A DNA stretch of 39,726 nt from Nitrososphaerales archaeon. Its GTDB lineage: Archaea > Thermoproteota > Nitrososphaeria > Nitrososphaerales > Gagatemarchaeaceae. The position numbers were made by a program, and so were the translations under genes. The DNA lies in NCBI GenBank assembly GCA_030038365.1, contig JASHPA010000176.1:1-39726 (forward strand), read 5' to 3'. Position 1 is the stretch's first letter, and the number at the start of each line of letters is the position of its first letter. Below the pieces are notes generated by a model. The model did not search any database. It was not told the DNA's origin and saw nothing but the letters and a program-made list of their open reading frames with translations. Of the stretch, positions 33,664 to 38,530 are shown in pieces.

Positions 33664-33858
33664 CTACTTAAAGCCTTTCGGAATTTTCTGTACCGCCTTT
33701 ATCGCGTCGCTCGCCTTCTTCAGTTCCACCGTCGCTGTCGCAGCGTCGGTCGCCGTGATAGAGTGCGAGAGCACCCCGTCTGAGAGCTCAGAACCTGGGA
33801 GTTTCTTGTGGAGGGATGCGAGCTCGACGGGCGTCCCCTCGAGCCTTACGTTTATCGT
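33664..33858 (-). CDS. Small Pcc1-like ORF (possible KEOPS subunit), no canonical start codon
   Basis: Hand translation: (ACG)INVRLEGTPVELASLHKKLPGSELSDGVLSHSITATDAATATVELKKASDAIKAVQKIPKGFK*; 'ITATD...IKAV' resembles the Pcc1 C-terminal half; position next to prefoldin beta/L37Ae. Confidence 0.45.
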   Translation of the reverse strand, partial: TINVRLEGTPVELASLHKKLPGSELSDGVLSHSITATDAATATVELKKASDAIKAVQKIPKGFK

Positions 33859-33874
33859 GACAGACCTGATGGGC

Positions 33875-34096
33875 TTATGCGCTCTTCGACTGGGCGACGT
33901 CGTACGCCCCTCCGGCCACTGTGAAGCCGCAGGTCTTGCAGGTCCATACGCCGGTGGACACTCTGGCCAGTTTCATGCTCGAGCAAGAAGGGCACTCCTT
34001 CTTCGCCTTGAGGAGGCGATGTACGTTTGAGTACCGCTTCCTGACGGTGCCGCCGTACTTGGCTCCCAGGCCGCGCTCGGACTTCGACCTAGGCGT
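33875..34096 (-). CDS. rpl37ae: Ribosomal protein L37Ae (eL43), apparently initiated at ACG
   Basis: Hand translation: (ACG)PRSKSERGLGAKYGGTVRKRYSNVHRLLKAKKECPSCSSMKLARVSTGVWTCKTCGFTVAGGAYDVAQSKSA*; no ATG/GTG/TTG between in-frame upstream stop and conserved N-terminus; GGGAGG about 9 nt upstream of ACG. Confidence 0.9.
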   Translation of the reverse strand, partial: TPRSKSERGLGAKYGGTVRKRYSNVHRLLKAKKECPSCSSMKLARVSTGVWTCKTCGFTVAGGAYDVAQSKSA

Positions 34097-34904
34097 GTCC
34101 GGTGGCCTCCCTGATTATGGCCCTGATGTCGTTCCCCCTGTTGAGTGCCCAGTCGGCCGCGGTGAGAATCTGCTCTGGGTTCAGGGCGCCCGGTTCTCCC
34201 TTCTGTCCGGCGCAGATGTGCCCCTGCCCGTCCGTCGTCAGGGTTATCCTCGCGTCCATGACTGCCTCTTCCTCGGAAGTCGGGTCGGCGACAAGCGTGT
34301 TGCCTATGCTGGCCATGGTGAGCGACACCGGGATCTTCTCCACCGGTAACGGGCTCATCTCGCCCGTGTTCTTGACGCTGTCGCCGTCCATGACGAACTT
34401 GGGCATCTTGGCTGTCAGCAGGGCCGAGACGACCGCATAGCTGGTAGCATCGAAGAGGTTACCGTCGACGTTGAGGACGTTCACGTCAGCGAAGACCGCG
34501 TAGACCCACTTGCCTTCCTTGATGACCAACGTGCTCATGTCGATCATCTCGGACTCCCTGACGCCTCTGTCCACGACCCTCGCGAGTTCTATGGCACCTT
34601 CGTCAGGGGGACCGGCTTCCAGGTTGGCCGCAGCGAGCGGCAGGACCTCAGCGCCGCATATCAGCAGACCCTTGTCTGGCGTGTCGGGGAACGGGGCTCC
34701 TTTGTCTATCTTCACCCCGGCGATGACCTGAGTATTCCCGAGGTTGACCAACGCTGAGCCGTTGGCTTTCTCGATGACGCCCGTCTGGATTTCGAGCTTC
34801 CTGACCTGGTCGAGGCGCCTTCCGTCGAGCCTCGTACCCTTCGCCAGCAGCTCTAGGAGCTGTGCCTTCCTCAGTGTCTCGACTACGTATGATTTCCCTG
34901 GCAT
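34089..34904 (-). CDS. rrp42: Exosome complex protein Rrp42
   Basis: 'GTRLDGRRLDQVRKLEIQTGVIEKANGSALVNLGNTQVIAGVKI' RNase PH fold. Confidence 0.95.
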   Translation of the reverse strand: MPGKSYVVETLRKAQLLELLAKGTRLDGRRLDQVRKLEIQTGVIEKANGSALVNLGNTQVIAGVKIDKGAPFPDTPDKGLLICGAEVLPLAAANLEAGPPDEGAIELARVVDRGVRESEMIDMSTLVIKEGKWVYAVFADVNVLNVDGNLFDATSYAVVSALLTAKMPKFVMDGDSVKNTGEMSPLPVEKIPVSLTMASIGNTLVADPTSEEEAVMDARITLTTDGQGHICAGQKGEPGALNPEQILTAADWALNRGNDIRAIIREATGHA

Positions 34905-38353: not shown

Positions 38354-38530
38354 ACGTCGTACTCGAAGGGACAGACGTGGGCCGCCCTGAAGAAGTGCTG
38401 GAGGGCCTACAAGATTGCTAAGATCAAGAACGAGAAGAAAGACATGCTGGAATACGCGAACAGGATAAGGACGCTCCAGAAGGAGCTCGGCGTTCAGCAG
38501 GCCAAATTCCCGGAACTGAACCTGTCTTAG
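38354..38530 (+). CDS. Small basic protein (about 58 aa) without canonical start
   Basis: Hand translation: (ACG)SYSKGQTWAALKKCWRAYKIAKIKNEKKDMLEYANRIRTLQKELGVQQAKFPELNLS*; upstream in-frame TAA at 38312; own TATA-like TTAAATA at 38311-38317. Confidence 0.6.
   Translation, partial: TSYSKGQTWAALKKCWRAYKIAKIKNEKKDMLEYANRIRTLQKELGVQQAKFPELNLS

Follow-up and report, generated by a model that had tools for sequence, protein, structure and literature searches.

Can a ribosomal protein gene of an archaeon begin at ACG? The question is raised by rpl37ae, which encodes L37Ae (eL43), in a stretch of DNA of 39,726 nucleotides (hereafter the window) with a GC content of 59.5%. The host family is Gagatemarchaeaceae (Nitrososphaerales), formerly known as group I.1c and having GC contents of 54–62% (PMC10640624), and the close relatives of the genome, which we call G000, are Thaumarchaeota MAGs and Ca. 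Gagatemarchaeum. Reviews of archaeal translation list AUG, GUG, and UUG as the only start codons (PMC7531240, PMC4574771). A listing of the open reading frames with ATG, GTG, and TTG starts does not report rpl37ae, in line with the statement of the initial annotation that ORF callers miss the gene.

The rpl37ae start and its surroundings

The features that bear on the start codon are the following.

33875–34096, minus strand: coding sequence of rpl37ae (eL43/L37Ae), from ACG to TAA, with PF01780 above the cut-off and a start position that is conserved in relatives
34094–34096, minus strand: ACG, the proposed start codon of rpl37ae, homologous to the ATG, GTG, or TTG of relatives; ACG also in genomes G024 and G184
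34106–34111, minus strand: GGGAGG, a Shine-Dalgarno-like element that precedes the ACG by 9 nt, with (A)GGAGG at the same place in congeners
34089–34904, minus strand: rrp42 (exosome RNase PH-like subunit), the upstream gene, the last 8 nt of which overlap rpl37ae

In the L37Ae frame, the minus strand reads TAA TCA GGG AGG CCA CCG GAC ACG CCT AGG TCG AAG TCC GAG CGC GGC CTG GGA..., and the frame continues intact to the TAA stop at 33875–33877. Neither ATG nor GTG nor TTG is present in this frame between the upstream TAA and the internal Met of CSSMKL. The initial annotation had described an intact frame that lacks these three codons before the conserved N-terminus, with GGGAGG about 9 nt upstream of the ACG, and our reading agrees with it on both counts. 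The ACG has the properties of a near-cognate start, namely, no canonical start in reach, a homologous position, and a ribosome-binding context upstream.

The product matches the PF01780 profile with 62 bits, the gathering cut-off being 21.9. Its four-cysteine zinc ribbon, CPSC...CKTC, is invariant across the alignment of relatives, and this feature and the conserved N-terminal part RGLGAKYGGT.RKRY both place the protein in eL43. The scores fall short of the stricter NCBIfam equivalog cut-offs (66.8 vs 87 and 59 vs 95.8), as for a divergent archaeal member. The gene is the sole copy in the assembly, which comprises 2.3 Mb in 216 contigs and is 88% complete.

Across the ACG, the 3' end of rrp42 reads CAC GCC TAG. 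The C of the ACG (G at 34095 on the plus strand) coincides with the third base of the His codon CAC, and ATG at this place would therefore leave Rrp42 unchanged; the earlier view that the ACG is not forced by the overlapping gene thus holds. The two genes lie on the same strand with overlapping stop and start, which is the arrangement expected for termination-reinitiation coupling. The overlap amounts to 8 nt in genus g1 and to 1 nt in genus g7 (1 nt in G024). In another genome, G007, the rrp42 gene (G007:C68:10910-11672, minus strand) is broken up into three pieces that overlap and differ in frame, likely due to assembly or sequencing errors.

The start of rpl37ae is directly readable in about 30 genomes of the family, and the ACG of G000 falls on their exact homologous start codon, which is where the initial annotation had expected the N-terminus. 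Comparing the junction among relatives, as had been suggested, gives a divided answer: the congeners of G000 do have ATG or GTG at this codon, behind the same (A)GGAGG leader, but the relatives do not all carry ATG, the exceptions being G000 itself and the pair G024/G184 from another genus, all with ACG. G024 (YF1.bin121) and G184 (clean525) are separate assemblies with 2 differences in 2,000 bp around rpl37ae, and they are therefore separate sequences that agree on ACG. Codons 2–6 (PRSKS) differ only synonymously between G000 and its nearest relative, G003, which points to protein-level constraint on the segment right after the ACG. Two more distant Nitrososphaerales MAGs (L083 and L084) have CTG at the homologous rpl37ae start; in the former, a GTG lies in frame three codons before the CTG.

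ACG and CTG at conserved starts

A first survey covered the exosome-cluster region (12 kb) of each of 20 family genomes, and ACG is found there at the start of psmA in G001 and of rrp41 in G022. A later survey added the regions around uS3, uS13, and uS12, and 1.55 Mb of sequence from about 40 family genomes yielded alignments of 108 orthologous families; the compared genomes are related and incomplete, with MAGs among them. Starts were inferred from the alignments, and start columns were counted only if at least 80% of their codons were NTG. These columns contain 816 NTG codons (493 ATG, 207 TTG, and 116 GTG) and 45 others, counts that are not independent, because the species are related and G024/G184 and G008/G014 are near duplicates. 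The commonest non-NTG codons are ACG (12) and CTG (8), some of the 12 ACG columns having a nearby NTG and thus possibly misplaced starts. In families with 12 or more members, ATA, ATC, ATT, and AGG do not occur at start columns, and ACG does not occur in any of the 1,050 cells of conserved internal Met columns (Fisher p=4.6e-5). TCG gives no coherent case at start columns. In the regions fetched after the hypothesis arose, ACG is again the top exception (7/616).

Among the ACG starts with no plausible NTG are those of uL30 (G018), an EcfT-like gene (G011), and a nusA-like gene (G008 and G014), the sole nearby NTG of the last being an ATG at +13. CTG is found at the homologous start of uL15 in G022 and also in G004 and G017, with NTGs downstream only (L190, L193, L195), and at that of a mevalonate-kinase-like (GHMP) gene in three congeners (L207, L209, L212). 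The CTG starts of both genes are preceded by Shine-Dalgarno-like leaders. Two further ORFs with ACG at the start are located in the window itself.

38354–38530, plus strand: conserved ORF of 58 residues, function unassigned, with an ACG start at 38354–38356 and no NTG in reach
33664–33903, minus strand: Pcc1-like small ORF in the +1 frame, its start probably inside the 3' end of rpl37ae, with ACG ACG at 33898–33903

The 58-residue protein, for which no Pfam match was obtained, begins TSYSKGQTWAALKK..., while its relatives begin MSQYTKGQSWGALKK... or MSQYTKGQSWGALKKAWRGYKVAKV....

The ACG start of the Pcc1-like ORF is less certain than that of rpl37ae; the position is occupied by ATG or TTG in most relatives and by TCG in three genomes. 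Each of the ~35 species has this ORF overlapping the 3' end of rpl37ae in the +1 frame, and its start codon is shared with the Tyr/Phe-Asp codons of L37Ae. The overlapping Tyr/Phe codons end in T in 20/27 genomes, compared to 16% elsewhere (p~3e-11, a value inflated by relatedness), which preserves an ATG or TTG at the start of the Pcc1-like ORF. We have also considered a frameshift fusion of L37Ae with this ORF, prompted by the constant +1 frame, and rejected it, since the arrangement is better explained if the ORF starts within the 3' end of the L37Ae gene. The Pcc1 identity was likewise dropped, being without Pfam support and with PF09341-like matches elsewhere in several genomes. At the 3' end of the ORF (about 33664–33680, minus strand), a recurrent AAAGG(A/C)TTTAAGTAG was noticed by eye in many relatives, and it looks like a putative TATA box for the following pfdB gene.

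We defined a Shine-Dalgarno match as at least 4 nt of GGAGGTGA within 20 nt upstream. Such a match precedes 17/17 ACG and CTG starts without a nearby NTG (11 ACG and 6 CTG), the 11 ACG starts including the nusA-like pair with its ATG at +13 and the near duplicates G024/G184 and G008/G014. Elsewhere, matches are found at 61–70% of NTG starts, 36% of internal ACG codons, and 30% of random sites. Weak start codons would need the better Shine-Dalgarno context that the ACG and CTG starts have; errors at ordinary starts would not select it.

In Nitrososphaeraceae (45–55% GC), the same pipeline gives 391 NTG, 1 ACG, and 1 CTG. This ACG belongs to uS3 of G117 (L252:9625; TSAVKNVIKNNF...), where the other genomes have NTG and the nearest NTG is an ATG at +14. 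The difference between the two families is suggestive only (p=0.07 if ACG is counted by itself, p=0.02 if ACG and CTG are pooled), and the trait is therefore not clearly exclusive to Gagatemarchaeaceae; judging from these two starts, it may also occur, more rarely, outside the family. The genomes of a 20-genome order-wide control were too divergent for starts to be fixed. As far as the alignments tell, ACG and CTG most likely serve Gagatemarchaeaceae as minor start codons, each making up about 1% of the well-conserved starts. The rpl37ae start, initially treated as an isolated case, is instead part of a family-wide pattern that involves other genes and other members.

One of the genes in the surveyed regions, uS12, is split in G000 by an insert of about 500 residues that keeps the reading frame (L226:8719-10581, minus strand, corresponding to G000:C197:46718-48580). 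The insert matches the Pfam profile Intein_splicing above the cut-off (37.6 vs 35.8 bits), and an insert at the same site is present in G010, G022, G025, G026, G031, and G033. It is an apparent intein inside a ribosomal protein, for which a literature search returned no prior report.

Alternative explanations and proposed mechanism

The initial annotation had left two options for the ACG, near-cognate initiation and a single T>C error. According to the latter, the gene has a true ATG start that is concealed at 34095 by an error made in sequencing or assembly, or by a minor allele; this explanation draws on the fragmented state of the G000 MAG and on the ATG or GTG carried by its congeners. However, ACG recurs in the separate assemblies G024 and G184 and in other genes, including the two further ones in the window. 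Errors are moreover expected to yield ATA as often as ACG, against the 12 ACG and 0 ATA seen, and enrichment of Shine-Dalgarno matches at ACG starts is not expected from them. An error is thus improbable, and near-cognate initiation is favored.

Initiation might instead take place at another near-cognate codon, e.g., the CTG of Leu9 (CTG GGA GCC AAG), resulting in a protein about 8 residues shorter. The CTG starts of uL15 and of the mevalonate-kinase-like gene show that such codons are at the disposal of the family, but the conserved PRSKS segment lies upstream of Leu9, the Shine-Dalgarno spacing suits the ACG, and the relatives start at the ACG position, making this possibility very unlikely. 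It was also considered that L37Ae is not initiated separately at all but results from a ribosomal frameshift that extends Rrp42 into it, as the 8-nt overlap and the lack of an NTG in G000 could suggest. The frame relation of the two genes is not conserved, differing between genera g1 and g7, and relatives retain an NTG at the homologous start, as separate initiation predicts. The fusion was rejected on the former ground, and we regard it as extremely improbable.

On the basis of these comparisons, the ACG at 34094–34096 is very probably the real start of rpl37ae, placed by a Shine-Dalgarno element, probably coupled to rrp42, and belonging to a minor use of ACG and CTG throughout the family. 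The GGGAGG element would position the 30S subunit at the ACG, and ribosomes finishing rrp42, which would stop a few nucleotides past it, would probably reinforce initiation. The initiator Met-tRNA would then decode the ACG with a C–A mismatch at the middle position, and we infer that L37Ae would begin Met-Pro-Arg-Ser-Lys. In G001, psmA has its ACG start behind a non-overlapping leader, suggesting that context alone may suffice. Loss of aIF1 as the cause was considered and rejected, as the factor is present in 39/45 genomes and the copies inspected look ordinary.

Precedents and implications

Near-cognate non-AUG initiation is familiar from eukaryotes, some genes of which start at CUG or ACG. 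CUG is the strongest near-cognate start there (PMC11706245). The codons tolerated in the two settings are the same, each one base off AUG, and e/aIF1, e/aIF1A, and e/aIF2 are common to archaea and eukaryotes. In contrast to the eukaryotic cases, initiation here would depend on a Shine-Dalgarno context within polycistronic archaeal mRNA, and several of the genes concerned are essential, single-copy, and without any other start. The GUG and UUG starts of archaea are similar in that a non-AUG codon is read by the initiator Met-tRNA in Shine-Dalgarno and operon contexts, but their mismatch is at the first codon position, while that of ACG is at the second. A search of the open-access literature (subscription literature lying outside it) did not find an ACG start codon reported for archaea.

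Termination-reinitiation coupling is documented for overlapping archaeal gene pairs (PMC6728339), which share with rrp42/rpl37ae the co-directed overlapping genes and the intragenic Shine-Dalgarno element. Those pairs are of the ATGA/TGATG type, whereas the overlap here is 8 nt with ACG and the coupling is putative; psmA of G001 has its ACG without a tight overlap. In chloroplasts, ACG starts are repaired to AUG by C-to-U RNA editing (PMC9845219). These genes also have a genomic ACG at a conserved start position, but editing would restore AUG in the mRNA. To our knowledge, start-codon editing of this kind is not known in archaea.

We tentatively put forward a broader proposal, which we consider possible though somewhat less probable than its opposite, namely, that start choice in Gagatemarchaeaceae is heritably relaxed by a change in the initiator tRNA, the initiation factors, or the ribosome. 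ACG and CTG would then be standing fourth and fifth start codons genome-wide, and about 1–2% of genes, essential ones included, would be missed or truncated by callers that accept ATG, GTG, and TTG. Already if the reading of ACG as a real start is right, such callers miss or truncate ribosomal proteins, the proteasome alpha subunit, and exosome subunits in these soil archaea, and the missed genes can distort completeness estimates that are based on marker genes. It would also mean that, in nature, initiation in archaea can proceed despite a mismatch at the second codon position, and this in essential single-copy genes. The family would thereby offer a natural system for studying how the stringency of start-codon choice is governed by aIF1 and the initiator tRNA, in the domain that gave rise to the eukaryotic machinery.
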